A stretch of 64,000 nucleotides of DNA from Datisca glomerata (Eukaryota > Streptophyta > Magnoliopsida > Cucurbitales > Datiscaceae): NCBI GenBank assembly GCA_003255025.1, contig QANY01009007.1:62001-126000 (forward strand), written 5' to 3'. Of this stretch, positions 21,484 to 57,525 are shown one piece after another (position 1 is the stretch's first letter; the number at the start of each line of letters is the position of its first letter). The notes beneath the pieces were generated by a model, which made no database searches, was not told where the DNA came from, and saw nothing but the letters and a program-made list of their open reading frames with translations. The translations under genes were made by a program, and so were the position numbers.

Positions 21484-22391
21484 TTAATAAGCGGATCCGC
21501 ATATGGAGTTTGTTTCGACGTGCTCTATAGACAACTGTCCCTTCTGAACTCTTTCCTTAACAATCAGGAAATTGGTGTCATTATACATAAACTTTGTTGT
21601 GCTCCTGTTGTTATTAGAATACAAAAATGCTGACTTACTGTACAAACCTAAGCATACATCAGACTCCCTTCTAGTGAGGCATAGGGAATCTTCTGTATTT
21701 TTTCTCAAAATCATTCTTAAAGCACTGATTGAGACTAAAATTGTCTCCCTTAGCCAAAGAGGTATCACCCAGTTTGTAGTCTTGCATGTCATATCTCTTA
21801 AATACATTTTTGATATAACTCTTTTGTGTTAATCCAAGAGTACCATGAGAACGATCTCGATGTATTTGGATCCCTGATACAAAAAATGCGTCACCAAGAT
21901 CTTTCATCTCAAAATTTTTAGCTAAAAATCTCTTGGTGCCATGCAATAAACATATATCGTTGTTTGTAAGCAAGATGTCATCCACATTAAAACCAAAAAA
22001 ATGTGCTTACTCCCACAGAATTTATGGTATATATATCAACCAAATTTGTCTTAAAACTAAATGAGATGATCACCTGATGAAACTTAAAATACCATTGTCG
22101 AGATGCCTGCTTGAGTCTATAGATAAATTTATTAAGTTTACAAACTTTATTCTTTGGGTCTCCCGACACAAAGTTTTCTAATTGTACCATATAAATTATT
22201 TTTTCAATGTCACCATTGAGAAATGCCATCTTTACATCTATTTGATGCTGCTCAAGATTGAAATGCGCCACCCGCGCCATTGTAATCCTGAAAGAGTATT
22301 TCATAGAAACTCGACAGAAAGTCTCTTTATAGCCAACTCCTTCTTTCTGTGTAAATCCCTTTGTGACAATACGAGCCTTGTATATTTTCAC
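21484..22391 (-). pseudogene. Copia-1 reverse transcriptase (broken)
   Basis: Frames 22391-21987 and 21985-21671 contain ARIVTKGFTQKEGVGYKETF, QIDVKMAFLNGDIEKIIYM and IYRLKQASRQWYFKFH, then VDDILLTNND and QKSYIKNVFKRYDMQDYKLG. These are consecutive conserved copia RT motifs, with VDD standing for Y/FVDD. A frame shift separates the two parts; the RNase H domain beyond is largely unreadable. Confidence 0.85.
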
Positions 22392-22954
22392 ATTACCTTT
22401 TGAATCCCTCTTGGTTTTAAAAATCTATTTGCAACCAATGGGTTTCGCACCTTCTGATAACGGGATAAGATCCTACATATCATTGTCCTTCATGGACTTA
22501 ATTTCCTCATTCATGGCATCGATCTATTTCTAAGAGGTAGAACTCTTTACATGGCTTGAAGGAAGTTGATCGAGTCATCTGCCATCACTCCAATATCTAC
22601 ATTATGTTCTTGGAGAAATACAATGTAATCCTCTGGAACTTTACTTCTTCTCTCTCTAGTGGATCTTCTTAATGGCATATGTTCTTGAGGTGCTAGAGTT
22701 TGTTTTTCTGAAAGAGTTTCTTGATTGTGAGGTTCTTCGATATTATATTGATATGTTGCGTCATGAGCAATGTCAGGAACGATGTCCTGATCAATATTAA
22801 TAACACAGTGGGAATATCAATGTATTCCATTTGCAAGATAAAATCCCTAACTGTATCTCCCACTACAAACTCGGCACCATCAAAGAATCGGGCATTTTCC
22901 GTCTAAAACATCGACCTAGTCGTGGGATCATAAAACTTGTACCTCATGTACCTT

Positions 22955-23420
22955 TCAGAATATCCAACAAAAATAACTCACCATCTTTAAATCCAGTTTG
23001 TTTTCATTAGGCCTATAAGGCCTTGCCTTAGCTGGACATCCCAAAATATGAAAATGCTTTAGACTAGGTTTGATGTCGGTCCAAAGCTCATATGGGGTTT
23101 TTGCAGTCCGTTTTGTTGGTACTCTATTATGGATATATGTTGCAGCCTTAAGTGCTTCACCACAGAGTGATTCTGGTAAGGTATAATGGCTAATCATATC
23201 CATCACCATGTTTGTAAGCCTTCTATTTTGTCTTTTAGCAACACCATTCAAAGTGTACTGTGGGACGATACCACATTCCTCTAGGAATTTAGTAAACGGT
23301 CATGGACGTTGTTTATCCCGAACCGTTATATCTATCATAGTGCTCACCACCACGGTTAGATCTGGCATTTTTTTTTATCTTTTTGTTGAGTTGGTTCTCA
23401 ACTTCAACCTTAAAATTTTT
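22955..23420 (-). pseudogene. Copia-1 integrase C-terminal part (broken)
   Basis: The frame 23251-22955 reads MNGVAKRQNRRLTNMVMDMI, then CGEALKAATYIHNRVPTK and TPYELWTDIKPSLKHFHILG, the usual copia integrase sequence after the catalytic Glu. The upstream catalytic region (23260-23700) is still recognisable at DNA level but heavily damaged. Confidence 0.8.
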
Positions 23421-23992
23421 TAACACATCCAATAACTGTGACTTTTCATGGATGAGATATATGTAGCCATATCTAGAAAAATCGTATGTGAACGTTATAA
23501 AGTATTATTGACCATTCCAAGCAACTGGAGGGAATGACCCACAAATATACGTATGTATAAGTTGTAAAACGTCATGAGTCTTGTTGGCTTCAAATCTCCT
23601 TTTATCGATTTGTTTACCCTTTATGTAATTTACACAAACATCAAAATCTGTGAAATCTAAGGGACCGAGAATTACGTCTGACACAAGTCTCTCTATTCCC
23701 CATATGGAGATATAACCTAATCTTTTGTGTCATGACGCAGCTGAATTCTCCCTGGTTAATTTTCTTTTAGTACCTTATGTACTTAATTGTAGGAATTCAT
23801 TAAATGAAGCTATTATATCAAGTAAATAATGATTATCGAGACCTGATAAAAAACCAGAACCAATCAAATTTGAATCATGAAATAAACCGAATTTTTTGTC
23901 TCCAAAAGAACAAACATAACCAGCTTTGTCCAAAATAGAAATATAAATTGAATTTCGTCTAAAAGACAGTATAATAAAAGTTTCATCAAGAT

Positions 23993-24009
23993 CTAAATAA
24001 AATCCAGTC

Positions 24010-24057
<48 letters not shown>

Positions 24058-27656: not shown

Positions 27657-29318
27657 CCTTTCACCATTTCCCTAGATCAGTCAATGGACGTGCAAATATT
27701 TGCGCAAAATCGAGACGTAATAGGAATCAAGACATATTTCAATTTATTCCTTTCTCTTATGAGTGTACAACTATGGCTTTGAACGTTCCTTTGTAATTTT
27801 TTATAGAGCTAGTTATCTTTGATATGTTAAAAACGGGATGAGAATGAGAATCATTTTTGGACCTTTTTATCCACTTCATATTTTATAATTTTCAAATTTA
27901 CCCTTTCAGTTTATTAATGGTGCATTAATATTAGTTTATTTTTTATTTTTTCTTTTTTATAATGGTGTATATCTTGACTGCTTTAAATTTTATTTATAGA
28001 TATGATAATATTTTATGTTATTTCTTTCTTAAAGAAATATTTAGAGAAAATTAATTAACTAAACAAATTTGGCATGGTTACCGCCTTTTGATTGACCGAT
28101 GTAGGACCAAATTATCACAAAGATGGGAAAGTTTATTGGGTGAGATGACCACAACGTAGCTGCCCCTCCTCTCGTCGATTGCCGCATATAATTTCCCCAA
28201 AGGTAGCCTGTCGTTGGAATTGGATCCCCTATTCTTGGTGGGAGGGTTGGGGCCTTGCAAGGTCGAACACATGGTTGGATTTAGTTGATCCTTGTCGTTT
28301 ACTTAATCTATTGAGATTCTCATTATACATTTAGTTTAGCTTTTTGAATCTAGTTTTTAGTTCAATACCACTATTATTAACTGAAATTAAAGAATTAGTA
28401 GATTTACTTAGGGCAAAATTGGAATGGATTAGGATTGTCAACTTATAATCTATAATTTAATGACCGGGTTGATTATAAGATTATAAGATTATAAGTTCAT
28501 AACATGTTAGGGCAGACCCAAATAAGGCCTATTCATTTTATTTACAGTTAGTACCGATAGTGTCGGACACATGTTGGAACATGGGGTACGCGCCCAATAT
28601 AGAAGCCAATGTAATTGGTGATAGTTTAATTGATGACAATTGAATCGATGGTAAAATATGATTGATATTGTTTGTTGTGCTAGTAATTTATAGATAGTTG
28701 ATGACAATTTATGATTGTTATGTTTGATATATGTATAATTTTATTGTAAGTTTATGAAAAATAACGTTTGAAGTAATTTAACTGCCTACTCAGGGTTGCC
28801 CTTTTTGGAGGGACTCTAGTTGCATTCTACAGTGGTAAATTAAAACTACCAACAAAATATGATTGCTATCAATTTTAAGGATTACTCACAACAAATAAAG
28901 TAATTCAATTGCTATAAAGATTATGAGAGGATTACAGCCTTGAATTACCCATACCAAACATGCCTTAGTTTTATGAATCTATTGGTTAATTTTTTTTAAA
29001 GTTGATTTAGTGTCGCATAGAAGTCGAACTATTTCTTTAGGCTTCATGATTTGATTCCTTCCACTGCATGGGTGTTGTCATATGTTGTCTGTCAAGCCCA
29101 TGATATCCACTTTGTACGCTCAGAACTTTCTACTGCAAAATGATGTATTTCGGGCTTGTACATTGTATATAATATTTTTAATAAATAATGATTAATTTAA
29201 TAAATTTAATTATATAGTTTTCCGTATTAATATAGTTACTAGATTGCCCTCTACTTTATTATTTGTAACTATTTTATTATCTCCCTTTATCTTTCTCTCT
29301 ATCTATTTATAATACTGT
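27657..29318. other. AT-rich intergenic DNA
   Basis: No gene recognised. A short tandem repeat of GATTATAA units occurs at about 28470-28495. The rest is low-complexity AT-rich DNA. Confidence 0.5.
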
Positions 29319-29463
29319 TGATGTCTAAAATCTCTCAACAATACACGTGCTCTCTTTTTGACGACTAAAAATTTGTAGAACACAAATAAAGAATCCAAAG
29401 AACGAGGAGAATCGGGGGTGATTTCCTCGCCTAAAGGCCTCCAATGCTATGTCAGTATCTTGG
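29319..29463 (-). repeat. Distal part of the gypsy 3' LTR, cut off by the hAT element
   Basis: The stretch matches the complement of the end of the gypsy LTR at 54442-55175. For example TTTCCTCGCCTAA and GTCAGTATCTTGG occur here on the plus strand and, complemented, around 55015-55060 there. It stops exactly at the start of the hAT terminal repeat (29464). The rest of this LTR copy is at 39215-39691 in the opposite orientation. Confidence 0.8.
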
Positions 29464-29599
29464 CAAGGGCGGATTTGCCCAAGGATCATGGGGCACGTGC
29501 CCCCCTCACATTTTCATGTACCGTATTTTTTACCTACACTAAACCTAACCCTTTCTATATCTCTCTGTTACTTTTGGTATCATAAAGTAGCCGTCTCTT

Positions 29600-29790
29600 T
29601 CACGATTTCCTCTCTCTCTCTCTCAAGTCCAATCGTAGCCTTTGTCTTTCTCTCTCTCCCAAGTCTCATCGTAGCTAGCATCTCTCTCTCTCTCTCACCC
29701 TCTCTCTCCCTCCCTCTCTCTCTTAAGTCCCACATTAGCCTTTCTACCCTAGCCCTAGTCATCTCTCACTCTCTCTCTCCATCTCAACTA
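29600..29790. repeat. CT-rich simple repeat in the hAT 5' region
   Basis: Runs of CTCTCT interrupted by short CCC and AAGTCC units; polypyrimidine on the plus strand. Open frames across it on both strands are compositional. Confidence 0.8.
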
Positions 29791-30204
29791 AATTACATCT
29801 CTAATTCTTTTTTTATTCTATATATTCTTTAGTTTATATTTGAATTGGTGTGTTCCTCACAAATACTTCTTTGGACATGGATCTCATTAGGTAAGTCTCT
29901 TAATATTTATTTGTTTTACATGTTTGATTTTCATTAATATATTATATTATTTATTTTTTTTGTATCAATTATGTTTAGAAATTAAAAAAAATGTTGAACA
30001 TATACACGCAAAGGCTGTCAAAGTAGCCTGCGTAAACAAGTATGAACTCTAAAATTTAATTATTATGCTCGTTCATTATCATTTGATATTTTATTAAATT
30101 TAAAATTACTACTTTCGTTTATGGTTTTGTTTACTGTATTTCTTATTGTACTTCACTTTGTAAGCATAAATAAAAAAAGTTAGTTTTTACTACTATGATC
30201 TTGA

Positions 30205-32043
30205 AATAGAAATGGAAAGATATTTTAAAATAAAATCGACACTAGAACTGTCTTCGTCAATAGAGAAAAGAACTGCTAGTTCAGAAATTTTGTTTGAAGA
30301 AATTAATTTAGTCCCAGTAGATCCAGACATTCGAATGTTCGAGATCGAGTTCGAATAGCATATTTACAGAAAGGTCCCTGTAAACCTCGAAGACGGTTTA
30401 ATCCAGCTTTGTTCGATGAATATCCAAATTGGTTAGAGTACAACATATCCAAAGATGTTTCATTTTGTTTATGTTGTTACCTATTCAAGCCCGAAGTTGG
30501 AGAACAAGCATGAGGTGACTCTTTTTGTTGGTGAAGGATTTTCAAATTGGAAGAAGAAAGAGAAATTGCAAATTCGTGTTGGAGATCCTAACAGTGCTCA
30601 TAACCAGCTTGGGCTCAATGTGAAAGTCTATTGAACCAAAAAGAATATATTGAGACACGTGTTAATAAACATTCAGACCAAGCTTGAAGTGAATATTGAA
30701 CTCGTTTATGTGCACTGATTGATTGTATCTGATTCCTTTTAAGATTAGGGCTTCCATTTCATAGGCATGACGAATATGAAGATTCAAAGAACCACGTTTC
30801 TTGAACTTTTACGATGGTTATGTGATCACAATAATGATATAAAAGTTGTTTCCTTTAAAATTGCTCTAGAAAATCTGAAATTGATAACACTTGACATTCA
30901 GGATATTGTGAATTGTGTTTCAATTGAGATTGTAAGTACTATTATTAAAAGTATTGGTGACAAGCTATTTTCTATTCTCATTGATGAATCTCGTGACACA
31001 TATTCCTAGGAGCAAATGACTATTCTATTACGTTATGTGGATAATGGTCATATAATTGAATGTTTTGTAGGTATTGTTCATGTCACTAACACTGTTGCTT
31101 TCTCACTTAAAAAAGCTATTGATAAATTTTTTTTAGACATGGATTAAGTATGGACAATGCTATGATGTGGCAAGTAATATGCAAGGTGCATTTAATGGAC
31201 TCAAAGCACTAATTTGAAGGAAAATGAATGTGCAATTTATATTCATTGCTTTGCCCATCACTCCAGTTAGCTCTTGTAGCTGTTGCAAAAATCATGTAGA
31301 CATTACAAGTCTCTTTACTTTGGTTGTTAAGGTGGTGAACATTGTTTGAGGTTCAGCGAAACGTCGTGTCATCCTTCATGATAATACACACTACTGTAGT
31401 TTTTGAAGCTATAAACAATAGTGAGCTTTCTAGTGGACAATGACTAAATCAAGAAATAAGTATTAAATGAGCTGGTGATACATGTTTGGGCTCACATTAT
31501 AGTACTTTGGCTAGCTTAATTACCATATTTCCATCTGTAATAGATGTACTTGAGATCATTATGGAAGAAATACCTAGTTTTAATTAGAAATATGAAGTAA
31601 AAGTTCTACTAAATACAATTAAATCATTTGATTTTGTAATGAACCTACACATGATGAAAAATATATTGGAGATTGCAAGTGATTTGTCTCAAGAATTACA
31701 AAGAAGAGATCAAGATATCGTGAATGCGATGAATTTAGTTAGATTATGCAAAGAAAGGTTGCAGTTGATAAGAGAAACATGATTTGATTCTCAACTTTGT
31801 AAAGTTTATTCATTTTTTGATAAACGTGATATTGAAGTTCCTAGCATGGATGGCATGTTTTTTACTACAGGAAGAAAAAGATGTAACACTCACAACATCA
31901 CTATCGAGTTGAAATATTTTATGTTGTCAATATGCAACTTCAAGAGCTAAACAATCATTTCAATGTGGCCAATACAGAATTGCTTCTTGGTGTTGCATAT
32001 TTAAATCTAAGTGATGGGTTTTCTAATTTGGTAAATAAAAATT
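30205..32043 (+). pseudogene. hAT transposase (TTF-type zinc finger / DUF4371 family), N-terminal and central part, broken
   Basis: From about 30210 the frames read MERYFKIKSTLELSSS, then VGEGFSNWKKKEKLQI and GDPNSAHNQ. These are followed by FLELLRWLCDHNNDIK and KLFSILIDESRDTYS (the DES first-Asp motif), ILLRYVDNGHIIECFVGI, KENECAIYIHCFAHH, and finally LQELNNHF.VANTELLLGVA. These are consecutive signatures of plant TTF-type zinc-finger hAT transposases. Stops and frameshifts are frequent. The last readable residues correspond to the segment just before the dimerisation region, whose continuation is at 41999-41817. Confidence 0.85.
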
Positions 32044-32044
32044 T
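32043..32044. other. Rearrangement breakpoint 1 (hAT to copia-2)
   Basis: On the left is hAT transposase on the plus strand; on the right is copia RNase H on the minus strand, ending after SWSSKTN. The counterparts of both halves meet at 41999/42000 in the opposite orientation. About 20 residues of hAT coding sequence are missing between the two hAT halves; the copia halves miss only a few bases. Placement is good to about 10 bp. Confidence 0.75.
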
Positions 32045-34117
32045 ATTCGTCTTGCTACTCCAAGATATGGCGCCATTGCTTAGCAAGAAAACATATTCAG
32101 ATGTTGATTTACATTCGTCAGGGTCACCACCCCAATCAACATCTGAGTAACCCACTAGATGCAAATCGTTTCCTCGATAACAGAAACATAAATCTGTAGT
32201 ACCTTTAAGGTACCTCAAAATCCTCTTAACAGCTTTCCAATGAGCTTGTCCAAGATTTGACTGATATGAGCTGACTAAACTAACGACATAATAAATATCA
32301 GGACGTGTACAAGATATCGTACATCAAACTTCCAATGGCATTAGAATATGGGACTCTAGCCATGCTCTCTTTTTCTTCTGGAGTCTTAGGACACATTTTT
32401 TACTAAGGATTTCACTCTTTGCTATTAGAGCGTCGATGAGGAGTTTGCAATCTCGCATATTGAATCGTTCGAGTGTTTTCTTAATATATGACTCTTGCCA
32501 CAGAGTAAGAAGTCTTTTTGAATGATCTCGATATATTTTCACACCTAGTGTAAATGTTGCTTCACCCATGTCCATCTCAAAATGAGAAGACAACCATTAT
32601 TTAATGGTAACGCCAAATATTTTATCATTCCCATCCAAAAGGATATCATCTACATACAATGATATAATTAAAAAATTACTCTCAACATGTTTAACGTAAA
32701 CACAATGGTCTTCATCGATCATCATAAAACCATAAAAGGTTATGGCTCTATGAAACTTAAGATATCGTTGTCTAGATGATTGTTTGAGGCCATATATTGA
32801 TCTTAGGAGCTTGCATACTTTGTGCTCCTGGCCTTTTGCAACAAAATTCGCAGGATGTTACATGTAAATTTCTTCATCTAGTTCCTCATTCAGGAAAGCA
32901 GTTTTTACGTCCATCTAGTGTAATTTCAAATCCATCTGGAAAATAATAGCTAAAATTAGACATGTGGAGGCAAACCTAACAACATGTGAAGTTTTTTTCA
33001 CATACTCTATTCCTTCTTGTTTAGTGTAACCCTTAGCTACCAAATGTGTCTTATATCTTTCTATAGATCCATCTTCCTTGCATTTAATTTTGAGAACTCA
33101 TTTGTTCCAAATAGCTTTACGCCTTCGTAGAAGATTAACCAAGTCCCAAACACGGTTTATTCTCATTGTCTCCATTTCTTCTTCCATTGCCTTTAACCAA
33201 TGATTTTTTATAGTTGATGAAAGAGCCTCTTGTACAGTTCTCGACACATGTTCATCATATGGCGTAATCATAAAAGCTTCTCCCCCGATTTCAAAACATC
33301 AACGAGGAATACTTTTACGAGTACTTCTCCGTATATAATCTTCTTACAGATTTGTATCATCAGTCAAAATGTTACTCCCACTCGAAGCAAGGAGATGAGA
33401 CACATTCTCATTCATTTCAGATGTCTGATCCATAGTAACATTAGTGTCAAGATCTTCTATCTCATATAGACTCAGATCTTGACTAGCTTCTCTTTGTTAG
33501 GAAATTCATTCTCTAAAAACATGGCATCTCTTAATTCAAATTCAGTAAAACTTCCATCAAATTGTCCACCAATGAACATGTATCCTTTGGCGTGTTCAAC
33601 ATATCTTATAAAAATGGACTCCTTACCTCTCCGTCCAAGTTTACCATACTTATGAGAAGAATTGTGAACATAATCTGCAGATCCCCAAGGTCGTAGATTA
33701 CTTAAGTCGGGTTTCATACTCGTCCAAAGTTCATATGGGGTGGAAGTTACTGATTTAGAAGGTACACAGTTAAGTAGATATGTAGCAGTAAGCAACGTAT
33801 CTTCCCAATATGAAATGGGTAAGCTCGCTTGTGCCATCATAGACCTTACCATATCTAGAAGTGTTCTATTCCTTCTTTCCGTAACACAATTTGGTTATAG
33901 AGTTCCTAGAATAGTTAGTTGTCTAGATATACCATTTTCATCACATAATTATTTGAATTGATCAGAAAGATATCCACAGCCTTGATATGTTCTTAATGCT
34001 TTTATCTTTTTGTCTATTTGATTCTCCATCAAATTCATAAATCATTTGACGCAGTCCAATGCTTCAGATTTATGGGAGATTAAATAGACAAATTCACATT
34101 ATTTGATATCCTTATGT
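32044..34117 (-). pseudogene. Copia-2 polyprotein, integrase to RNase H (middle part, broken)
   Basis: On the minus strand from 34117: integrase core text ending in VYLISHKSEALDCVK, then NRTLLDMVRSMMAQASLPIS and TPYELWTSMKPDLSNLRPWG (33852-33472). The RT follows with MDVKTAFLNE and YVDDILL near 32640. RNase H has LVGYSDVDWGGDPDECKSTS and ends with NGAISWSSKTN at 32044. The family is the one whose C-terminus and 3' LTR lie at 42000-43801. Stops and frameshifts show it is dead. Its 5' part is absent here and is inferred to be at 59697 onward. Confidence 0.85.
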
Positions 34118-34118
34118 G
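34117..34118. other. Rearrangement breakpoint 2 (copia-2 to gypsy)
   Basis: To the left, copia integrase text on the minus strand fades out near its catalytic-core start. To the right, gypsy integrase starts with EVHEGVCGN on the plus strand. The bases ATGTGAAGTCC can be read as part of either, a short microhomology. The missing gypsy 5' part ends at 57525. Confidence 0.7.
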
Positions 34119-35200
34119 AAGTCCACGAGGGAGTCTGTGGAAACCAAGTGGCGCATGGGCCCTGCACCATAGGCTCAAAAGGCAGGGATATTATTGGCCG
34201 ACGACGGTTTCAGACACTAAGAACTTCGTAAGAATGTGTGACAAATGCAAAAGGACCGCGAACATCCCGCACCAACAACTAGAACCGCTCATCTTCATCC
34301 CAAGTCCATGATCATTTGCTCAGTGGGGGTGGATTTAATCAGACCCCTACCAATGGGGAAAGGCCAGAACAAATTCACCATCATCGCCATAGAATATTTC
34401 ACCAAGTTGGTAGAGGCAGCACCCTTAGCCACCATCACAGAGCACAAGACCATGAACTTCATATGGAAAAACATCATGTGTAGTTTTGGCATACCCAACA
34501 CCATTATCATGGACAACGACAAACATTTCGATAAAGCCAAGTTTAGGTGGACGTGCGAGAAACTCGGGATTAGGCACCTTACCTTTTCACCAGCCCACCC
34601 ACAGTCCAATGGACAAGTAGAAGTAGTCAACAAAACCATCAAGAACAATCTCAAGACAAAATTGGAAGGAAGGAAAGAGCTGTAATTAGACGAGCTCCTA
34701 AACATCATCTGGCTTATAAGACCACTAACAAAACAACAATGGGAGAAATACCCTACAGACTGGTCTTTACCTCATAGGCTCTCATCTTGGTGGAAATAGT
34801 GGTACCCACCCATGGAGTCCAGCAGAACGGCCTGGAGCAAAATGTACGCCAATTAAGGCACAACTTGGATGACCTAGAAGAACTATGGGACTAGGCCAAT
34901 CTGTAAAACGAGTCATACCATGTCACCGCCTCACGATACTACAACTCCAAGATGAAGGTTCTTCAAATTTGGGCGGGTAATCTGGTCCTACGAAAAATAA
35001 AATTCATGGAAGTAGAAGCCCTCAAACATAATAGGGAAGGACCTTATCTGGTAACAGAGGTAATACGGCCATGGACTTATCAAATATAAGACATGGATGG
35101 ACGGGTGTGGCACCTCCTTAGAATGCAAAGCACCTTAAGGTCTATAGCTCGACTAGGCATCAAATATAAAGGCTATTTTCCCAAAAATGAAGACGTCAAA
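34118..35200 (+). pseudogene. Gypsy integrase (zinc finger and core, broken)
   Basis: Zinc-binding region: EVHEGVCGN, then (frameshifted) SGAWALHHRLKRQGYYWPTT and CDKCKR, giving the H-H-C-C set. The core (frame 34245-34685) has QWGVDLIRPLPMGKGQNKF, EYFTKLVEAAP, FGIPNTIIMDNDKHF and SPAHPQSNGQVEVVN: the catalytic D, D and E positions are readable. A stop follows at 34683 and the C-terminal part to about 35200 is broken. Confidence 0.9.
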
Positions 35201-35209
35201 GGAAAAAGG

Positions 35210-35565
35210 TGATGTTCGGCTTGCTCTCTAGCACACCATACAGGAAAATGGATGGTAGCCCGAGCAGAAATGTCTGGCTAGATGTCAAATGAAAAAAGTG
35301 ATATTTGGCTTGTACTCTAACTGGGTAGATGGGAAAAGGGACGCTACCTTGAGCAAAAATGCATGGCTAGACATCAAAGGAAAAAAATGATGTCTTTCTT
35401 GCACTCTAGCTCGTCATACAGGAAAAGGGATGCTAGCCTGAGCAGAAATTCCTAGCTAGATGTCAAAGAAAAAAAATGATGACTAGCTTGCTCTTCAACT
35501 TGCCATGCAGGAAAAAGGAACTAGCCCAAGCAGGAATGCATGTTGGGACATCAAAGGAAAAAGAG
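35210..35565. repeat. Four tandem copies of an 89-bp unit
   Basis: Units start at 35210, 35299, 35388 and 35477, exactly 89 bp apart, each with a TGATNTNNGGCTTGC-like start and a central GGAAAA..GGATGCTAGCC-like block. They lie between pol and the antisense ORF of the gypsy element, a place where Tat elements often carry tandem repeats. Confidence 0.9.
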
Positions 35566-36196
35566 GTATAAACGGTTAGCTCACTAGATGAGAAATAAAC
35601 TCAGTTTGAAGCAGGTCCACACAAATAGACCTTCTACACCAACACCTAAAGTACTCCGAAGGCTACAGAAGGATTGTATGGCTTGACCTCCTTAAAAGAG
35701 GGCAACCCACTCAGAAATAATAGAGATAACCTTACAACCTAGGTCGACATGCATTATTACTTAAAACATTAATGTAACAAGAATGATGAAAGATCAAAGT
35801 GTCATTCAGAACAAGTTAGAACTCGACAATAGTAAAGCTCCAGTTACTTAGGGCTCAATCAAAATTTGAGACCGATGGCCAAGTTAGGTTAAAGGTTATG
35901 ATAGAAGCAAGAAAAGAGATAAAACCATTGAAGAAAACATGTTCTCATCTAAGGAAATAAAGATTACAAATAAAAAAACTAGATAAAAGCTCTGGAAGTG
36001 CTGATGGCAGCCTAAGCGAGCTCTATGGTGGGGGACGGGCCTCCTTGGTTTCACCCAAGGGTAAAGGAGACTCCCTTGCATATGGACCAACCGAAGTAGC
36101 TTTCGAGACCAGAATATGGGGGACAACAGAAAAGAAAGGCTTGGAATTTTTAGAATGAACTAGATCAGGACACTGAGGACGAGGTGAAAGTTCCAG

Positions 36197-38403
36197 AGGT
36201 TAGCTGAGGAAGCTCAGGTCCAATTCAGGATAAGCCTCAACGATCTCATCTCGGTAACTATCATAACCCATGGAGAACTCCAAGAGTAGGGCAACCTTTA
36301 ACTCATGGGACTCTCTAAATTCATTCATACCTTTCACATGGATTTCATACCATCGATCGGATATCTCCTGCAAAGCGGCCTTCGCCAAGCTCAGTTGCTG
36401 ACCAATCTCCCTCTCCCAACTTTCAGCATGAGCAAGCTTCTCCTCCTAAAGCTGGGACTACTCTAACAAGATGCTCTTCTACTGTCGAAGGTTCATGATA
36501 ATCTTATCACAGTTGGTTAGTCAGGCCTCTAGATCCTGACAAATTTCCTGAGCCTGAGAGACCTTAGCCCTAGGCCGAGCCAAATCCTCCTCGAAAACCC
36601 GACCTTCCCGTAATAACACTAAGCTCCTAGATCTCCCCCGTTAGCTGTCCATTAACTTGAAAAAGGGAATCAAACCTATAGGCCCTGTCTACAAGCTCAG
36701 CCTCGCACTTCGAAGTCGCGAGCACCGCAGATAGTGTTTGCATCCAAGGTATGCCCCCTAAAGGCATCAGTAAACTCTGCCTCCGGCAGCTCAAGAAGAT
36801 AAGCCTCATTCCCAAGATCTGTATGTGTAGGCCACCAATTTAGAGCCCCCTCACCTCTTCTTGGGCCCGGTCCCGAGGACCAAGATTCTATGTCCCTTTA
36901 GTCAGGGTCATTGGGGATTTACGATTCTAATCTTGGGGGCCTGACCGGTCAGAACCTAGAGAAACAGACCCAATGAGCTGAGATGAAGACTCATCGACCT
37001 CAGGAATGATTTCCTTGAACTGAGCCCAAGGTTGAGAAGTTAATTAGGATGGTTGGGACAATCCTTTAGGAACTGCATGGTCAATACTATTTCACGATAG
37101 ACCCTACTCGGAAGGAAAAACACGCTTCTTGAGAAGACTTTCGGTGGTCTTCGGAGAAAAAAGCAGGAGTAGAGGATGAAGGGGGAGGTGGAGATGGTGG
37201 TATTGTCCCCGACGCTCTCCGTGGAAAAGTAGATAGAGGCGCACATAAGACCTTACACTCCTTTAACTTCCCTAGCTTTTTAGACTGAATGACCTCCATC
37301 TTCTGCACCTTGACCCCCAAACCTCCACCCGAGATTTGTTCGAAGAAGGATTACCTCCATCCATTTCTACCAGAAATAAAGCAACAACAATAAGATTGCG
37401 GACAAAAAAGAAGCAAAATGATACATAAATAACATCTTCTATGGTTTGAGGAAGGAGTCTCGGGACTCTTAAGACCAAGACTCTCCGAGCTCGAGCCTAC
37501 CGAATGGGCCTTGTCAGGAACCCCAATTGTGAAATTCGCTGGAGGATCTAGATACAATCTAGCCTGGAACAAGGACTTGGATGAGGTTAGGAAACTGAAG
37601 GAATGTTGGTCCACAAAGATCTCAGCAAGATTAAGGATCCGGGTTTGAAAATGGGCATAAAGTTCTTTCAGTTTTTGTCTTCCCCTGAACAAAAAGAAAA
37701 AAAATTAATTCTAAAATTAAGTGTGAGCATGCCTTCTCCCTCTAAGCCAAGATCTCATATGTAGTCTCAAAGTCGTAAGGCATTGAATTCATAAGCTTTG
37801 AATCCCCAAGACAAGACTCATAGGATCAAGAGATCACGAACCATTAGTATTTCCACTCTCTATACAAAGTGGGGATGCCGTTAGCAGGTCTTTTCATACC
37901 TCTTATCCTACCACTAATGTAGTACTAGCCTAGGTCCCGAGAAGGGGCACCTCACTCAATTTCTTAGGAGGGGACTTCAGTTGGAACAAAAAATTTCACT
38001 TCGCCTAGTGAAGTCCTCGCCGCAGTATAGCCTCCACAAGACCCAGCAACCCACCAGGACCCTTCAAGAATTGGGTTGGAGTTGGGCTAGAGTTATCCCT
38101 ATTGAAGTAAACCATTTCCTGATGAAGGGATGCAAGGGAAATTGCAGCCCACCGTCTAGAGCTACCAGGTACAGTCTGGTTCCTGCATACCGCAAGGCAC
38201 TAATTCTTTCACCCGCCTCCTGTAGCCGTAAGTGGATGTAATGTGAGAGATGGTATTTCTTTCGAATGGTGACTAAGTCCTCCTTAGTTAGGGAAGAAGG
38301 ATAGTCATAGCCCCCCTAAACAGTTGTAACTACCGCTTGGGCTCGCACGACATTAAGGATCAACACGGGAACCGACTGTCTCGATCGGCGAGTTTGAATC
38401 CAT
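36197..38403 (-). pseudogene. Antisense ORF of the gypsy/Tat element (putative gypsy-type transposon domain), broken
   Basis: Minus-strand frames start at an ATG at 38403 (MDSNSPIETVGSR). They continue out of frame with KKYHLSHYIHLRLQEAGERI and LQFPLHPFIRKWFTSIGITL, followed by AQLQPNS and RVLVGCWVLWR, a pattern I associate with the putative gypsy-type transposon domain (Transposase_28). Further frames at 37692-37351 and 36388-36200 end with EFSMGYDSYRDEIVEAYPEL. Many stops are present. The protein's role is unknown in general; I name only the family resemblance. Confidence 0.65.
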
Positions 38404-38776
38404 ATGGCTGGTGAAACTCTCCAAAACCCCTAGACAATATGAAAAACCCAAATAAAATTGGAAAAAGAGAAAGGGGAAAAGGAAGGAGAAATGACGTACC
38501 ACACAAGATTCGATAACAGTGAAGAAATTACTGAAAAACCAAAAAGCCGATAATCTCAAGTTATGGTACTTAGCAGCCGACAGAGGGGAAGATGTGGGCC
38601 CGGTAGATGAATGTAAAAGAAAATATTTGGAGGGAATTCTCACGACGAATGGCCCATGGGAAGAAGAAAACTTTTGATTTTGAAGAAAGAATAGATTCGG
38701 GGAAAAACAAAAGTTGTTAAGAAGCTCGTCTCCCTTAGATAGCCAAAAGTGGGAGTTGTGAAGAAGAAAACCACTC

Positions 38777-38783
38777 ATTTATA
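38777..38783 (-). promoter_or_regulatory. TATA box for the antisense ORF
   Basis: The minus strand reads CCTATAAATGAG, about 375 bp upstream of the antisense ATG at 38403. The frame opened across it (38778-38353) therefore probably lies in the leader rather than in protein. Confidence 0.45.
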
Positions 38784-39214
38784 GGCCTTGGAGTAAGAAA
38801 CGATCGGGACAATTGAGGCAATCCAACGTACCAGGAAGCCATCAGTTCACGAACTGACGGGACAAGCTCGAGAAACCAAACGTCACCCACACACTCATTG
38901 ATATGACATGCGACACTTTGGTAGTAGGAGTTATACGGTCCACACCCCTCCTTTACGCGTCATCATTACTACTACTCCCGAGAGGCGACAAATTTCAAAT
39001 TTTAACAAATGCGGGAACGCACGCGCGGAGAATTTCATCTCGAGAGGTATTTGATCTTCCAAGACATAGCTCTTAATGGTACTCATGGTTATTCCCACAT
39101 CAATAGCTTAAAGTAACATAGCTCTTAATGGTTTAAAACATACTTGGGAAATGGCGCATAAGTCTTCGAACCCTGGCAGGCAAGACCTGCACAGAATCCT
39201 TGACTGGGGACAAC

Positions 39215-39691
39215 TGTTATGGGTATTTCCTGGAGATCGATAAAAATAGGACATGTGTCCTAACAGTGCCATGCCCCACCTCCCTGGGAAGCTGGCCCAA
39301 CCTCGACCATAGGTTAGGCGCCATACCTGACCTGACCTCAGCAACCCACGACAAGGGCGAGTCATGTACGGTAGAGCTCATAATGAGAAAGGAATACTCG
39401 TTGAAGATCTGAAAGTCCAGATAACCATCTAACGTCAACACCATCATTACAGTCTAAATGTAAGAGTCGAGGTGGCACCTTTTTCAAGTCATCTCGACTT
39501 TTACGTCAGCTCGGGGGACAAGAACATTAAATGACACCTCCAACTCATCATATCAATAAAGAACCGCCATTCATCGAGACTTCTTTGACATGCTTCCTCC
39601 TCTGAGGCTTCAAGTATAAATACTCCCACTACTCCAAAAGAAGGTAAACAACTCTCCCCTTAGGAAAACTCTGCCAATTTTTTCTTAGGAT
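39215..39691 (+). repeat. Gypsy 3' LTR, proximal part
   Basis: It starts TGTTATGGGTATTTCC after GACTGGGGACAAC, a polypurine-tract-like sequence. It is similar to 54442-55010 but lacks a ~70-bp segment and the promoter duplication found there. One TATAAATA at 39615-39622. It is broken at 39691/39693 by the hAT end; the remainder is at 29319-29463. Confidence 0.9.
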
Positions 39692-39692
39692 A

Positions 39693-39966
39693 CAGGGACG
39701 GATCCAGAATTTTCATTTAGGGCACTTACAATATAAAATAAAATATTTATAAAAAAATGTCTTAAGAATGAAATTATTTTCAATGTTTTTTGTTACATTT
39801 ATAACTGCCCTCGGTGAGTTTTCATATTTTAGAATCATTGCATAATAATCTCATTGTCAATACTATCAAATAAATCTCTCTCAATGTACGCTGTCAAGTT
39901 ATCTTTCATCCATTGATCACTCATATGATTGCGTAAAAGATTCTTGATAATATTCATAGTAGAAAA
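39693..39966 (-). pseudogene. hAT element 3' end with transposase C-terminus
   Basis: The terminal repeat CAGGGACGGATCC is on the plus strand at 39693. Reading the minus strand, the coding part has TFSTMNIIKNLLRNHMSDQW, then IERDLFDSIDNEII and NMKTHRGQL, the hAT C-terminal dimerisation region of TTF-type transposases. It is continuous with 41999-41817 once the inserted element (39967-41816) is removed. Confidence 0.85.
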
Positions 39967-41816
39967 TGTTTGATCGGGTTTTAAAATTTGATAAAAAATT
40001 AATGAACCACGAACGGTTCGTAGGCGGAATATAATTTCTTTTTCAAAACAAATATTTAATCATATTAAATGCAACGATCATACAATTTAGATAAAAGTAT
40101 TGTGAAGAGATATAAACAAGTTTTACCTTTTCTTGTAATGGAGAATTTCTGAGTTGGTAGGATCCAATTTATTGTCTCGTGTTCCTCGTTCTTGAAATTT
40201 ACAGAATTTCAATCGATCTTAACACCTACAACCACTTGTATGATTCGAAAGTATGTCTCGTATGGATATTGTCAGGAATAGAGTGTGGGCTCTCTAAACA
40301 ACTGAGGAAGAAAAAACAAATTTTCTTCTTCCTCACTATGATTTCGGCAGCAACAAGGTAGGGGGAGAGAAGAGAAAAAAATTTTCTTGATATGAATAAT
40401 CACACACTATGATTACGTTAAGCTTAGGTTAACAATGTAACCCTATTGCAATCCCTTATATAATAATTACAGAATTTACACATACACTCCTATATTATAA
40501 ATTGCCGAAATTCACCGCCTCCCTGCACTGTTCTCTGTGATTTTTACATCTCCCTTAGAGCCAATAATGTGTCTGAATTTATCAATCCAAATTGATAAAT
40601 TAAATTGATTCCTATCAATTAATAGATTAATTTCTTTTATTTAATAATTAAAAAATAACAAATTAATTAATTTGAACATTAATCAAGCTCTTCACTAATT
40701 TAGTGATGACACTAATCACATATAAGTTCGGGAAGTGTATCTTGGTCCAAATACGTTTTTGGTCTGACTGATATTGTTTCTCATTCTTGTCATTATGAGC
40801 TACTCCTGAGATCGATTGACCCACTTGAATAAAGTTATGAAATTCAAATACTCGTATCTACATGAATTATTGACATATTTAATCTTGACATCGTACGACT
40901 CCACTATAGGTACGATACCGAATCAACTCTCAATTCAGCGCACTTCATTTTCTGTTGATGCAAATGAACATTTATATTTCATGGTCCACGAAATATTTTA
41001 TGATGTTACCCTTCGTGAATATCAGTAACAAGTTTAGGATGTAAAATTATCATTTTACCCATCTAGTTATTATTTCCTTAACTCCTTTATTGACTATAAA
41101 TAAAAAAGACATATAAGTGAATTGTCTCATATAATTCATAGTGTCTTATTCAATGACTCATGTCATCGAGTATCAATCCTGATTTATTTATTCACACACC
41201 CATCAATAAAGCATAAGGTGATATTGTTGATATTGCAATCTTACCATGAATTCCTTATATGTGAATTTCACAGCTCCAACATAGTTGAATCATGATCCTA
41301 ATAGTCAAGGTATCGTCCGACCATTCGAACTCACTCCTTTGACGTATCAAAGATCGCAAGTAACTAGGTCAAGTTTCGTATTCACCTCAGGATTAAAGTA
41401 ATTACAAAAAATACCTTTAAAGTGTAACAATTAGATTCAGAGCCAGATAAATGACTTTTCTATAAACTCATTTATTACTGGTTTATTCACCATGTCTAGG
41501 TCAACCGTTAGAGTCTCCACTCCCATGCCCCGAGACCGACATCCTTTGATTCAACCAAACAGTAGTAATTTGATTTGATTGTCCAGACGATCCTAAGACA
41601 ATGGATAACTTTTTGAACTATCTTAGAAGAGTTTGTCTGGAAGACCACTTAGTCTTTACTCTTCTTTCGTTGGCAATAGTTCCGGAACTTAAGTAATTAT
41701 AAACACAATTTAATTAAAGAAAACTTGCATTTATTCATAAAATCAGCAACACATAAATGTCATAACTAAATACTCATAAATAGTTATTACACCATATTTT
41801 ATGAACATAATTTCAA
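39967..41816. mobile_element. Uncharacterised non-autonomous element, copy 2 (inserted in the hAT)
   Basis: It is flanked by perfect 7-bp direct repeats TAGAAAA (39960-39966 and 41817-41823). It interrupts the hAT transposase inside the ERVFS(T)MN motif. It starts TGTTTGATCGGG and ends ATAATTTCAA. It has no recognisable protein; the 80- and 70-codon frames inside are not conserved in copy 1. It is homologous in inverted orientation to 11199-13105. Confidence 0.75.
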
Positions 41817-41999
41817 TAGAAAACACTCTCTCTATTGTTAGAACAGGTAGGATTAGTGACAACGTCAACACAAGTACACGAGCGGATAAACTTTGTCTTT
41901 TCTTATCTCAATCATTTTCTGTGCAAGTTCATCAATCCCTTTTAATCCTAAGAACTTGATGTTAGACCGCATATCCATAATATAATTATCAAGTTGATC
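41817..41999 (-). pseudogene. hAT transposase segment upstream of the C-terminus
   Basis: The minus strand reads DQLDNYIMDMRSNIKFLGLK, then GIDELAQKMIEIRKDKVYPL and LTLSLILPVLTIERVFS, the region leading into the hAT C-terminal motif. It begins abruptly at 41999 next to copia-2 and picks up about 20 residues after the hAT 5' half ends at 32043. Confidence 0.85.
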
Positions 42000-42000
42000 C
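41999..42000. other. Rearrangement breakpoint 3 (hAT to copia-2)
   Basis: Reciprocal to breakpoint 1. The left side is hAT on the minus strand, beginning at DQLDNY; the right side is copia RNase H on the plus strand, beginning at IVALSTMEVEF. Joining 32044 (complement) to 42000 gives SKTN followed by IVALSTME, the normal copia order. Confidence 0.75.
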
Positions 42001-42360
42001 TAATAGTTGCGTTATCAACTATGGAAGTGGAATTTATTGTGTGTTTCGCTGCAGTGCAAGAGGCAATTTGGCTTAGAAGGTTTCTGCAACATTTACAAGT
42101 TGTTTCTAGCACATCGAAACCAATGACTTTATTTTATGATAGTTAAGCAATCATCACTTATACTAAAGATCTGAAGTATTATGGAAAAATGATGCATATA
42201 GATACTAAGTATAATTTTGTATGAGATATTATAGTGCAAAAAGAAATAGTGATAAAACATCTCTCTACACATCCAATGACGGCTGATCCTTTGACAAAGC
42301 CAATCCCTAGAGATATTTTTCTAAGCCATGTCAAATCTCTAGGATTGTACAAATTATAAT
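42000..42360 (+). pseudogene. Copia-2 RNase H C-terminus (broken)
   Basis: Reads VALSTMEVEFIVCFAAVQEA, IWLRRFLQHLQVVSS and SKPMTLFYDS, then a stop. It continues with MMHIDTKYNFV, another stop, HLSTHPMTADPLTKPIPRDI and VKSLGLYKL. These are the closing motifs of copia polyproteins (HIDTKYH, ADPLTKPI). At least two internal stops. Confidence 0.9.
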
Positions 42361-43428
42361 ATGATGTGTAATTTTCAGTACATTTTGTATCAATGTTATT
42401 AATTAATGAACTTGATATTGTTCATTATTTTATTTATTTGTAGCATAGAAAACACATATCATGTTTGGATAAAATGAAAATGTATGTCGCCGGGCATAGA
42501 CCGACGTACTCATACAAGCAGTCATCTCAGGCGCTTAAAATGTTTGGAATAAGTGAACAAAGCGTACTTTAATTATGTTGTCGCCTTGACAAAAGGTCCA
42601 GATGAGGTCAAAATATTAATTTATGGATCAACATGATTCCCATGATCATGTAGCATGGATGGTGGATGGGATGTGAGAACTTATTGTAGGCGATATGAGG
42701 AGCGAGCTAGTAAGATCTCGAGCTAGGCGCGAGGAATATTTTAGTATCTGCAACTAAGCTAAGATCCTTATAGTAGTTCAATATAAGTTATAGTATATAT
42801 ACACTTTTTCTATGAAGAGATAACCATTATAGCATGTGATCATACCACATGTGTCTTTTTATGACTAAATAAGAGAAATGTGAGATAGAATCCCTGCTCT
42901 CACATCGTATGAGTCCTTGAGGTACTTTGAAACCTCATTTTGTGCCCTATGTGACTTTCGACTATATAGTGAAGTGATACATAAATGTTACTTTTTTAAC
43001 ATGTTACCTATGGTTATGGTAATTCGACCTAATGGAATATGTCTAGGAAAGTAATTTATTTGAAGCTAAGCTATATATGTAGGGAAGGAAGATTTTTTGT
43101 CTACGTGTGTTCATCGGTCGACCAATTATGTCACCTCGTAGTGGCTAGTACATAATTATGAATACATGTTTTGATTAAGTCAAGCATTGCTCTTGGATGG
43201 ATTAGAGATGTTTGAATTTACGTAACAAATACGTTTGGGGCATAGCGAGACGAGTAGACAGTCTTCAGTTTTGGGGCTGCTATGTTATCCCTAATAGGTT
43301 CATAGCAACTAGCTCTTATATGTGTTCGCGGGTCGCACGATCCATTTACCTGTATGAATTTATTAGTATGTGAATGTTTAATCGTTTGTAATTAAATTTG
43401 TTCTATCCCATCATGTGAGAATGGGAGA

Positions 43429-43801
43429 TGTTGGAAAACTCAGATCTGGGCGCCCACGTTGGGTCGACCTGACCCAGTTTGAAAATGAATGATTGATAAT
43501 TGTTCACATGAAAAACTACCAATGGTGGTTAATATAAAAAACTACCATTAACTTCTATGAAAGTGAACTTCATTTTTTTATTTTTGAGAAGAAAATTCGG
43601 ACCTACGAAAAAACTATAGAGAAAATCATTCATTCAACACTAAAATCACGTTTTCACATACAAAATCAATGGTTATTGGGTTGTGGAACAAGTGGGGAGT
43701 TCGTTTTCGTGATTTTCTACAAGATGCGGCACGTAATTCGTCAATTCAATCCATTTCGCTGCATAATCAAATAAGTATACTTGACTCGATTATTTTCTAC
43801 A
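43429..43801 (+). repeat. Copia-2 3' LTR, followed by target-site bases TATAC
   Basis: 373 bp starting TGTTGGAAAACTCAG and ending TTTTCTACA. The next five bases (43802-43806) are TATAC, the same five that precede the 5' LTR at 59697. It is similar along its length to 59697-60242 apart from an insertion in the latter. Confidence 0.9.
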
Positions 43802-44227
43802 TATACAATATTTTTTGTATAATTTATTCTTTTAATCATCTTTAATATACAAAGATCATTCAAAAAAACTAAATCAAAATAAATGCATGAACCCGTTGTA
43901 GAAATGCATGAAAGTAAGAATTATTATGTAAATAAATACTACATTTTAAAAGTCACTTCTAATTCCATTACATTCCAAAAGTTACAAAAGTGACATTTCA
44001 AAAGTCATTTTCCAATTCACATTTCAAAAGTCACTTTTCAATTGATACATTTTGACACATCTTTATTTGATGAGCAAATAGAAATACATTAATCGTACTT
44101 TTTAAGGACAATTTTAGATTAGTAAAAATGAAGATGGACAAAATTGTGTAAAAAAAATTATTCTCTTCTTTCACCTTTTAATATATTATAGATGGATAAG
44201 TAAAAATACATATCAAATTTACGTAGG

Positions 44228-47945: not shown

Positions 47946-48125
47946 GATTTCGAAGGTATATTTGGGAGTTTTGTTTTCTGACTTTTTAGTTCTAATATCG
48001 TATATTTGGGGGGGGGGGGGGNNNNNNNNNNNNNNNNNGGGGGGGGGGGGGGGTTTCAAAGGTATATTTGGGGGTTTTGTTTTCTGAATTTTTTGTTCTA
48101 ATATCATCGAGGGGTTTCGAAGGTA
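47883..48125. repeat. ~65-bp tandem repeat at the inner end of the left TIR, containing an assembly gap
   Basis: CGAAGGTATATTTGGG starts recur at about 47884, 47951, 48056 and 48118, each followed by GTTTTGTTT and TTCTAATATCGTA-like text. The third unit is distorted by a poly-G run and the gap. Confidence 0.75.
48022..48038. other. 17-base assembly gap (N) inside a poly-G run
   Basis: Fourteen G on the left and fifteen on the right surround the Ns. The true length of the G run is unknown. The matching 9-bp target duplications on either side of the whole element show the gap is not a misjoin. Confidence 0.98.
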
Positions 48126-51568: not shown

Positions 51569-51901
51569 TTACCTTTCGTAGAAGCCCGGGTATGACTTGA
51601 GTTGATCGAACACACATGGGCGGATTGTCTCAATAAAAATAATCACAATGTTTTCCTTCCTGCAATATAAAAACCAATCAAACTGATGTATAATTTGCAT
51701 CTCATAGCTCAAACAAAATTCATTTAGACAACACACCTCATCATAGTGTTTACATCCCCAAAATCTACTTCCAGGATTGGCATTTGTCCATGATGTTTTC
51801 AATACAACATTGTTGTCACAATAACAAAGCTTATTCGGTATATTTCTATGGAGACAATTATACAAGCCATGAATGTTATCGGACGAGTAACCGAATGACA
51901 T
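51569..51901 (-). pseudogene. GRF-type zinc finger ORF inside the MULE (probably degraded)
   Basis: 110 codons starting MSFGYSSDNI. It contains CYCDNNVVLKTSWTNANPGS followed by RFWGC, matching the GRF zinc finger (C-x-C, T..NPGRRF, then C) seen in many plant proteins, including ones carried by transposons. The later part, FDWFLYCRKENIVIIFIETI, could be a membrane or coiled segment. It runs opposite to the transposase. The DNA coding for the first ten residues is repeated in each 443-bp unit upstream. Whether it is a MULE-encoded accessory gene or a captured gene is undecided. Confidence 0.6.
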
Positions 51902-54441: not shown

Positions 54442-55175
54442 TGTTATAGGTATTTCTAGGAGATCGATAAAAGTAGGACACGTGTCCCAAAGTGCCACGC
54501 CCTACCGTATGGGAAGCCAGCCAAACCTCAGCCATGAGTCAGGCGCCCTACCCGACTTGATCTCACCAACCCATGACAAGGGCGGGTCAGGCAAGGTAAA
54601 GCTCATAAGGAGCAATGAATACTCGCTGAAGATCTGAAAGTCCAGATAATCATCTAACGCCAGCACCATCATAAACGCCGAAAGTAAGAGTCGACGTGAT
54701 ATCTTCCTATTTGTCCCCTGATTCGGGCCTCTAATCGTCGCCTCCTATATCAAACATGTCTCTTTCAAGTCATCTCAACCTTTACGTCGGCTCGGGGGAT
54801 AAGGGCATTAAATGTTGCCTCACTGCCACAACACTGAGGCTTATTCGGACTCTTGCTTCTGTGAGGCTTCAAGTATAAATACCCTCTCACTGCCACAACA
54901 CTGAGGCTTATTCGGACTCTTGCTTCTGTGAGGCTTCAAGTATAAATACCCTCACTTACTCTATAAGAAAGTAAGCAACTCTCCTCTTAGGAAAACTCTG
55001 TCAAAATGTTACCAAGATACTGACTTAGGTATCAGACGCCCTTAGGCGAGGAAACCACCCCTCGGTTCTCCTTGTTCTTTGGGTTCTCTGTTTGTGTTTT
55101 ATAGATTTCTAGGCCGAGAGTATTTCCATTCGTCAATGGGAGAGCGCATGTATTTTTGAGAGATTTCAAGCATCA
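54442..55175 (+). repeat. Gypsy 5' LTR with duplicated core promoter
   Basis: Starts TGTTATAGGTATTTC and ends AAGCATCA, followed by TTAATGCTGTCTGTGGGA, a degenerate form of the primer-binding region usual in Tat gypsy elements. A 67-bp segment with TATAAATA is tandemly duplicated: TATA boxes at 54874-54881 and 54941-54948. It is the LTR family of 39215-39691 and 29319-29463. Confidence 0.9.
54819..54952. repeat. 67-bp promoter duplication within the gypsy LTR
   Basis: CTCACTGCCACAACACTGAG begins at 54819 and 54886; both units contain TTATTCGGACTCTTGCTTC and GGCTTCAAGTATAAATACCC. The other LTR copy (39215-39691) has one TATA only. Confidence 0.9.
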
Positions 55176-57525
55176 AAAGTTAATGCTGTCTGTGGGATAA
55201 CTTCTTCCTCTAATAAATAAATATAAGCTTACCGGCGACAATCCTAACCGAGTAACATTCTCAGTTTTCTATCATCAAAAGTGAACCTTCAAACAACGAC
55301 GAGTTCAAAATGTGGATCTAAGGTCAAGACAACAAGGGGAGAGCCATGATCGACGAATCAGCCACGGAGCAAGCCTGGGGAAAGCCTATAGAACCATTTG
55401 GATCAGTTACACTTTTGCCGGAACTACCAGAGAGGACAGTCCAAATTGGTTCAATGCTCATTTCCAAGCACAAATAGGAGCTCATAAGGTTCCATCGAAA
55501 TAATAAGGTTGTCATTGCATGGACCCATGAGGAAATGCCCAGCATAGATCGGCGTGTATCATCCACCACCTTAACATTGACCCCAAGCTCAGACCAGTCA
55601 AGCAAAAAATGAGGAGCGTGAATTCAGAAATGGATGAGGCCATTATGGCGGGGTGGGGAAGCTGCTCTCTACAAGATTTACCGGGGAAGTCTAATACCCG
55701 AAGTGGCTGGCCAACGTCGTGTTGGTCAAGAAAACAAATAGAAAGTGGAGGGTCTGCATAGACTTCACAGATTTAAACAAGGTGTGTGCCATAGACAGTT
55801 CCCCTATTCCCCGCATAGACCTACTAGTAGATGCCACATCGGGACATGATCTGCTCAGTTTCATGGACGCATACTTTAGATACAACTAGATCTTGATCCA
55901 TCCACCCGACCAGGAGAAAACCTCATTCATCACCCGTCGAGAAACCTATTGCTACAACATGATACCCTTCGGACTAAAAAAATGTTAGGGAAACCTACCA
56001 AAGGTTAGTGAATAAGGTGTTCGCCGAACAAATATCGAGGAACATGGTGTTGTGTGTGGACTAAATGCTCGTAAAAAATAGAAGGATAACATACCATATC
56101 ACTGACCTCGTTCAAATGATCGACATCCTAATAAAATATAGGATGAAGCTAAACCCCTTAAAATGCACTTTCGGAGTCGGCTTAGGAAAGTTTTTGGGTT
56201 TTATGATCAAGCAGAGAGGGATCAAAGCGAACCCTGACAAGATAAGGGCATTATTGGAAATGGAACCCCCGAGCAACATCAAGGAGGTTTGATGTCACAT
56301 TGGGTGTGTCGCCGCGCCCAACCATTTTATCTTTCAAGCTAAAAATAAATGCCTCCCCTTCTTTAAGAACCTGAGAAAAAATAAGCATTCGAATGGACCA
56401 AGGAGTGCCAGGAAGCTTTTTCAGCCCTAAAAAGCTACTTTCTAAACCCTGTCCGGGAAGTTATTGTCTCTATACTTGGCAGTCTCATAGATGGTTAACA
56501 GTACTGCCGTGGTCTAAATAGGAGATGACTTTGTCCAGAAGCCTATCTATTACATTAGTAAGGCCATGGTGGGGGTATAGAAATGCTACCCAGACTTGGA
56601 GAAAATGGCCCTTGTCCTTGTTACAGTGGTATGTAAGTTTCGTCCATACTTCCAAGCTCACTCCATTCAAGTCCTCACGAGCTCTCTACTCAGGAAGGTC
56701 CTCCAAAAGCATAAGCCTCAGGATGCATAACTAAATGGGCCATCGACCTCAGAGAGTTTGATCTTTAGTTCATCCCTCGAACTGCCATCAAAGGGGAGGC
56801 TGTTGCGAATTTCATCGCAGACATGACGGTAGGCCGTAAAGAAGAAGCGGTGCCCGAAGGAGATCCTTGGACCTTATACATGGATGACGCCTCTAACAAT
56901 ATGGGAAGTGGAGCGGGCATACTGCTTTTGGCCCATAACCAATCCCAGGTTGAGTACGCTCTGCACTTTGGGTTAAAGGTCTCGAATTATGATGCGGAAT
57001 ATGAAGCACTGCTCGGGAACTAAGTTGGCATGGGCTTTTACTGTGCGAACCTTAAGGATCTAGAGTGACTCCCAACTAGTTATCAAACAGATCAACGAGA
57101 AGTACCAGATAAAAGGATGATAATATGGCCAAGCATCTGGCCTAGGCACAGGCCCTCCTTGGAAAGTATGACTCTTACACGATTCAATAGATCCCCCTAA
57201 ATATGAACACCAACGCAGATGCGTTGACCTAGCTGGCCTCAGCCTACGACACCCAGATCAGCAGAACGGTGCGAGTCAAATTCCTCGCCCTTCTAAGCAT
57301 CGACAATGAGGAAGTATTGGAAAAAAGTAAAGCGGAAACGATCCCATCATGGATCACACCTATATTCCACTTACTGGATGAGACCCTTACCCCCTGATAG
57401 GAAGGGGGTCTGAAAGCTCCATCTGAGATCGGCCAACTACGTAATTATCAATGAAACTTTGTACAAAAGAGTTTTTTCATATCCTTACCTGGGGTTCTTC
57501 GCGCATGATGAAGCACTGTACATCA
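55176..57525 (+). pseudogene. Gypsy/Tat pol 5' part: RT, RNase H and start of integrase (broken; gag and protease deleted)
   Basis: RT starts within about 250 bp of the LTR (VQIGSMLISKHK, NKVVIAWTHEEMPSIDRRV), so gag and protease are missing. RT motifs: VVLVKKTNRKWRVCIDFTDL, then NKVCAIDSSPIPRIDLLVDA, FMDAYFRYN, MIPFGLKK, and KYRMKLNPLKCTFGVGLGKF with LGFMIKQRGIKANPDKI (56065-56292). RNase H near 56870-57020: GDPWTLYMDDASNNMGSGAG, LHFGLKVSNYDAEYEALLGN. The integrase N-terminus reads NETLYKRVFSYPYLGFF, then HDEALYIMK, and stops at 57525 exactly where the segment at 34118 would continue. Confidence 0.88.

Follow-up and report, generated by a model that had tools for sequence, protein, structure and literature searches.

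We analysed a stretch of 64,000 nucleotides of the Datisca glomerata genome, hereafter the window, which corresponds to bases 62001-126000 of contig QANY01009007.1 (587,504 bp) in an assembly of 677,961,422 bases and 1,358 contigs (GCA_003255025.1). Its middle part holds a nest of transposable elements, in which a DNA transposon of the hAT superfamily, a copia retrotransposon and the long terminal repeat (LTR) of a gypsy retrotransposon are each split into two pieces of opposite orientation (Table 1). A single inversion of 32057-41999 rejoins all three. Because the split hAT, copia and gypsy LTR are continuous in unbroken copies, this segment has very probably been inverted. An inversion of about 10 kb had been proposed from the three split transposons in an initial annotation of the window, and the comparison with unbroken copies of all three in the same genome bears it out.

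In the hAT element, the two ends of one transposase are encoded by the plus strand from 30212 and by the minus strand from 41999. The element has the transposase homology of the superfamily (Pfam and homologues) and inverted terminal repeats, its ends CAAGGGCGGAT and CAGGGACGGAT being identical at 9 of 11 positions. What should lie between the two pieces? We compared them with proteins (120 hAT and 120 copia references, of which 12 and 46, respectively, lacked one anchor and were excluded from the distance counts) and with seven hAT copies elsewhere in the same genome, which are all the hAT places among the matches listed for the right join. The transposase anchors are 35 residues apart in 103 of the 108 references having both. 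All seven genomic copies are continuous from 32056 on the plus strand to 41999 on the minus strand (41998 in one), and the bases absent from the window between these positions amount to 48 bp relative to six copies and 47 bp relative to the seventh. None of the seven copies contains the 1.85-kb insert present at about 39967-41815 in the hAT of the window; some 1.2 kb of this insert has a relative of 73% identity at 11202-12430, in opposite orientation.

Places in the genome that were hit twice (L010/L018, L013/L034 and L015/L035) were counted once. The copia element was compared with 13 other copies of the same genome, seven from the left-join listing and six from the right-join listing. Every one of them is continuous over the break, from 33.5-34.1 kb of the window into the 42.0-kb side, and the internal gaps of three copies (L003, L006 and L020) all lie away from it. 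On the left side, 11 of the 13 copies match down to 32050 and the remaining two to 32041 and 32033; the match resumes at 42007 in seven copies and at 42006, 42008 or 42012 in the others. Of the 11 copies measured, nine have a spacer of 12 nt that the window lacks, and two have one of 11 nt (L002 and L007, whose alignments begin at a different base, were excluded from this count and from the left-join columns). The opposite limit of the 5' part lies at 34089 by proteins and at 34088-34096 by genomic copies. At the protein level the copia distance is 11 residues in 73 of the 74 usable references (of 120), as if nothing had been lost. This apparent lack of loss is a coincidence of length, because 6 bp of hAT and a 7-nt filler replace the lost bases. 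The protein-level result, with zero copia loss, a left join at 32044/32045 and about 61 bp of hAT missing, was thus overturned by the genomic DNA copies.

The third element is the gypsy LTR into which the hAT is inserted. On the unbroken LTR of the window at 54442-55180, the stretch 39215-39692 (plus) is directly followed by 29463-29314 (minus), and the two halves adjoin likewise in all six LTR copies fetched among the 15 LTR-type matches listed; in one of these (L029), about 25 bp beside the hAT site fail to align. Ten of the 15 LTR-type matches listed stop at 39693. The region 34110-39214 would be the internal part of this gypsy element, an assignment made partly from the LTR that follows it and also from motifs that we take to be of gypsy type, its match to the integrase core being below the Pfam cut-off. 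Within the inverted segment, the copia integrase and the gypsy-type integrase, both 5'-truncated, abut in opposite orientation at about 34090-34110, which is a further rearrangement.

Table 1. Features of the split transposon nest, with window coordinates.
Feature	Position	Strand	Basis or remark
Gypsy LTR, 3' part, outside the inversion	29319..29463	-	Alignment of 29314-29466 with 55180-55009 in the unbroken LTR
hAT target-site copy TATCTTGG	29456..29463		Letters read; 5/8 identical to the other copy
hAT, 5' part	29464..32056	+	Terminal inverted repeat start and DUF4371 transposase to the break; Pfam PF14291 (E 1.4e-26), transposase homologues, genomic copies
Left join, 7-bp microhomology TCTTGCT common to hAT and copia	32050..32056		Column comparison, 7 hAT and 11 copia copies
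Copia, 5' part	32050..34090	-	Part of integrase, reverse transcriptase, RNase H start; RVT_2 (E 1.5e-51)
Segment read as inverted, 9,943 bp	32057..41999		Bounds from 7 hAT and 13 copia copies; 32050-32056 assignable to either side
Putative internal part of gypsy from the integrase on, 5' end truncated against copia	34110..39214 (start approximate)	+	rve core (E 1.3e-6)
Gypsy LTR, 5' part, inside the inversion	39215..39692	+	Aligns to 54442-55004
Other hAT target-site copy, reverse complement TATCCTAA	39685..39692		Letters read
hAT, 3' part	39693..41999	-	Transposase end and terminal inverted repeat, with insert at about 39967-41815; transposase homologues, genomic copies
Right join, 7-nt filler CTAATAG, fitting neither hAT nor copia	42000..42006		7 hAT and 13 copia copies
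Copia, 3' part	42007..43428	+	Remaining RNase H and region before the LTR; genomic copies
Copia, 3' LTR	43429..43802 (end approximate)	+	Paired with 59697-60243
Uninterrupted gypsy LTR of the same family	54442..55180	+	Window self-comparison; serves as empty-site control for the hAT

The alignment columns of these copies give the joins at base resolution. At the left join, hAT identity extends through 32056 and copia identity holds from 32050 onward; since 32050-32056 fits hAT and copia alike, TCTTGCT is a 7-bp microhomology, and the chance that a random join shares at least 7 bp is about 0.0007. At the right join, hAT identity stops at 41999 and copia identity begins at 42007, and the column comparison revealed no microhomology there. 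By the same comparison, hAT lost 48 bp at the breaks and copia about 12 bp. Among the matches listed in the genome search with the left join, three of hAT type have their last query base at 157 (32056), and those of copia start between 134 and 153, in most cases at 151 (32050). Among those listed for the right join, the last query base of the seven hAT matches is 149 or 150 (41999), and the copia ones start at 157-163, mostly at 158 (42007). In four genome searches, each with 40 matches listed, no listed match other than the window itself spanned its junctions, and no second copy in either order was among them. A search of PDB with a short piece gave no match.

These joins differ by 6-13 bp from the positions of the initial annotation. 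It had let the hAT transposase stop at 32043 (plus) and resume at 41999 (minus): the second position holds, and the first gives way to 32056, to which hAT runs according to the seven genomic copies. The copia limits that it had placed at 32044 (minus) and 42000 (plus) become 32050 and about 42007, as 42000-42006 fits neither element. The residues SKTN, taken as the end of the copia reading, include a TN encoded by hAT DNA, and the start of the resumed copia reading is filler. Of the roughly 60 bp that it reported as missing from hAT, 48 bp belong to hAT and 12 bp to copia. Its description of a gypsy LTR split in opposite orientations at 29319-29463 and 39215-39691 is confirmed by the way the halves adjoin on 54442-55180 and in the six copies. 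The halves of the broken elements, whose overlap it had named as a sign against an inversion, do not overlap when set against the genomic copies.

How could such a structure arise? The anatomy of the nest shows that the hAT had entered the LTR of a gypsy element which is 5'-truncated and abuts a truncated copia element. The gypsy insertion is earlier than the hAT insertion, because the hAT split the gypsy LTR, and the hAT and copia insertions both predate the inversion. Later, the chromosome very probably broke twice, in the hAT transposase and in the copia RNase H. The ends were trimmed, with loss of the bases that the unbroken copies still have, and the freed segment was then rejoined in reverse, on the left at the microhomology and on the right over the filler. 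Given this explanation, we think that alternative end joining of the polymerase theta type, acting on two simultaneous breaks, is the probable repair pathway, as far as the scar allows one to tell. We favour it because the losses, the microhomology and the filler resemble the scars of polymerase theta in Arabidopsis. There, polymerase theta end joining is described as producing larger deletions, microhomology and fillers, and classical end joining as producing deletions of 1-5 bp with 0-1 bp of microhomology (PMC10923293). The likeness lies in the sizeable deletions, the microhomology and the filler; the Arabidopsis scars follow a CRISPR cut, whereas here the inversion is natural and the pathway is read from the scar, and the 7-bp microhomology exceeds the average of about 3 bp given in that source (PMC10923293).

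Other explanations must be weighed against two breaks closed by end joining. Both breaks sit in multi-copy elements, in which an assembler might misorient or falsely join a 10-kb piece, and the window contains one short run of N (48022-48038), so that some gap handling occurred. This run, 17 N within a poly-G stretch, is the window's only gap, and neither join contains N. A plain flip would keep all bases or leave a gap, whereas here 48 and about 12 bp were lost and 7 bases added, and one join has a 7-bp microhomology. Furthermore, misjoins driven by repeats pair like with like, whereas these joins pair unlike elements. The initial annotation had already considered misassembly unlikely on this last ground, and the bases lost, the microhomology and the filler add weight to its argument. 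We regard an assembly artefact as very unlikely. The main biological rival is template switching during replication, of the microhomology-mediated break-induced replication or fork stalling and template switching type, instead of two simultaneous breaks. Microhomology and short filler also occur in events of this type, and the window has the one at the left join and the other at the right. Yet the exchange is reciprocal and the losses are small, each hAT half is present once in the window, and none of the window's other copia pieces ends at the joins. We hold template switching to be unlikely, although a good deal less so than an artefact.

Two further mechanisms are suggested by what is known of plant inversions, and both seem to us highly improbable here. 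Since a hAT element lies at both breakpoints, its transposase might have made the inversion by alternative, reversed-ends transposition, as is described for Ac, a hAT element, in maize (PMC8225341). The maize inversions of that report share with ours a hAT element at the breakpoints, but they have element ends and 8-bp target duplications there (PMC8225341), whereas the breaks in the window are internal to the elements, in the transposase gene and in copia, with losses and without target-site duplication. Ectopic homologous recombination between inverted repeats is one of two routes given for plant inversions in a 2020 review (PMC7093584). It would require repeats that link the joins, but an inverted match of 12 bp, at the level of chance (E 0.19), is the longest that a comparison of the 2-kb regions surrounding them gave, and no linking pair appeared in the BLAST self-comparison, nor among the inverted pairs shown (25 of 28).

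Some observations nevertheless weigh against an inversion made by end joining. The joins are known from assembled sequence, and the direction of the change from one assembly. The 8-bp flanks of the hAT, TATCTTGG and TATCCTAA, agree at just five of eight positions. Two of the 13 copia copies align slightly beyond 32050, which BLAST alignments can do by chance. A template for the 7-nt filler was sought nearby, with no significant result (p 0.12 and 0.39); because the filler lacks a significant nearby template, the polymerase theta reading rests on the microhomology and the loss. Finally, a correlation test of whether the halves belong to the same subfamily, made with 106 hAT and 59 copia references, does not discriminate, and it is given no weight in favour of the inversion. 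The copia halves reach a rho of 0.585 against a same-protein median of 0.85, a value attained by 34% and 40% of mismatched pairings, and share 7 of their 10 best references. For the hAT halves, rho is 0.211 where the median is 0.37, mismatched pairings reach that rho in 26% and 61% of cases, and 1 of the 10 best references is in common. A better answer to this question than the correlation comes from those genomic copies in which both halves find a match. Taken together, we give a probability of about 90% to a real 9.94-kb inversion, arising from two breaks in the transposon nest that were closed by end joining.

The window contains further pieces of copia elements, at 21417-24020 (minus; matched by all 120 copia references), 59857-60066 and 63436-64000. 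The LTR at 59697-60243, which is of the same copia family as 43429-43802, holds some 156 bp of DNA coding for RNase H. Its stretch 59866-60007 matches 42030-42171 at 87%, and a repeat of about 16 bp, TTTTTTATTTTTGAGA, flanks the RNase H piece, which seems to have been captured in the LTR from the element's own gene. Outside the nest, open frames at 3497-6457 (minus) belong to a gene resembling galactinol-sucrose galactosyltransferase 6, of the raffinose synthase family. The search covered 5144-6457, with a Pfam match to this family at E 4.3e-193, and the top named matches are eudicot proteins of 85-88% identity. The regions 51862-53629 and 57528-59360 hold tandem arrays, made of 443-bp units with about 95% identity and of units of about 186 bp with an inverted partner at 57528-57799.

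What does the inversion mean for the plant? The breaks and the DNA adjoining them consist of transposon sequence only. We saw no evident function at the breaks and no effect on genes, the latter not having been specifically tested. Because the breaks fell in transposon sequence, the rearrangement is likely to have been neutral. Plant genomes commonly contain inversions bounded by transposons, and the present case is ordinary in kind. In rice, a pan-genome index lists 1,769 non-redundant inversions, with copia, gypsy and Mutator-like (MULE) elements over-represented at the breakpoints, and 59 of the 100 inversions examined are reported as having no clear inverted repeat (PMC10030860). The window resembles that set in having transposons, a copia among them, at the breakpoints and in the missing inverted repeats. 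It differs in how the event was recognized: the rice inversions come from the comparison of genomes (PMC10030860), whereas here the broken elements of one assembly give both direction and breakpoints. The present inversion is unusually well resolved for one studied without an outgroup.

The relative importance of the mechanisms behind plant inversions remains to be explored, according to the review of 2020 (PMC7093584). When a break falls inside multi-copy elements, one assembly suffices to read the direction of an inversion and the scar of its repair base by base. Nested transposons could in this way act as built-in recorders of break repair. We suggest, tentatively, that a scan of such nests might provide a catalogue of scars that requires no outgroup, and that polymerase theta joining may be found to be the chief source of small inversions in plants.

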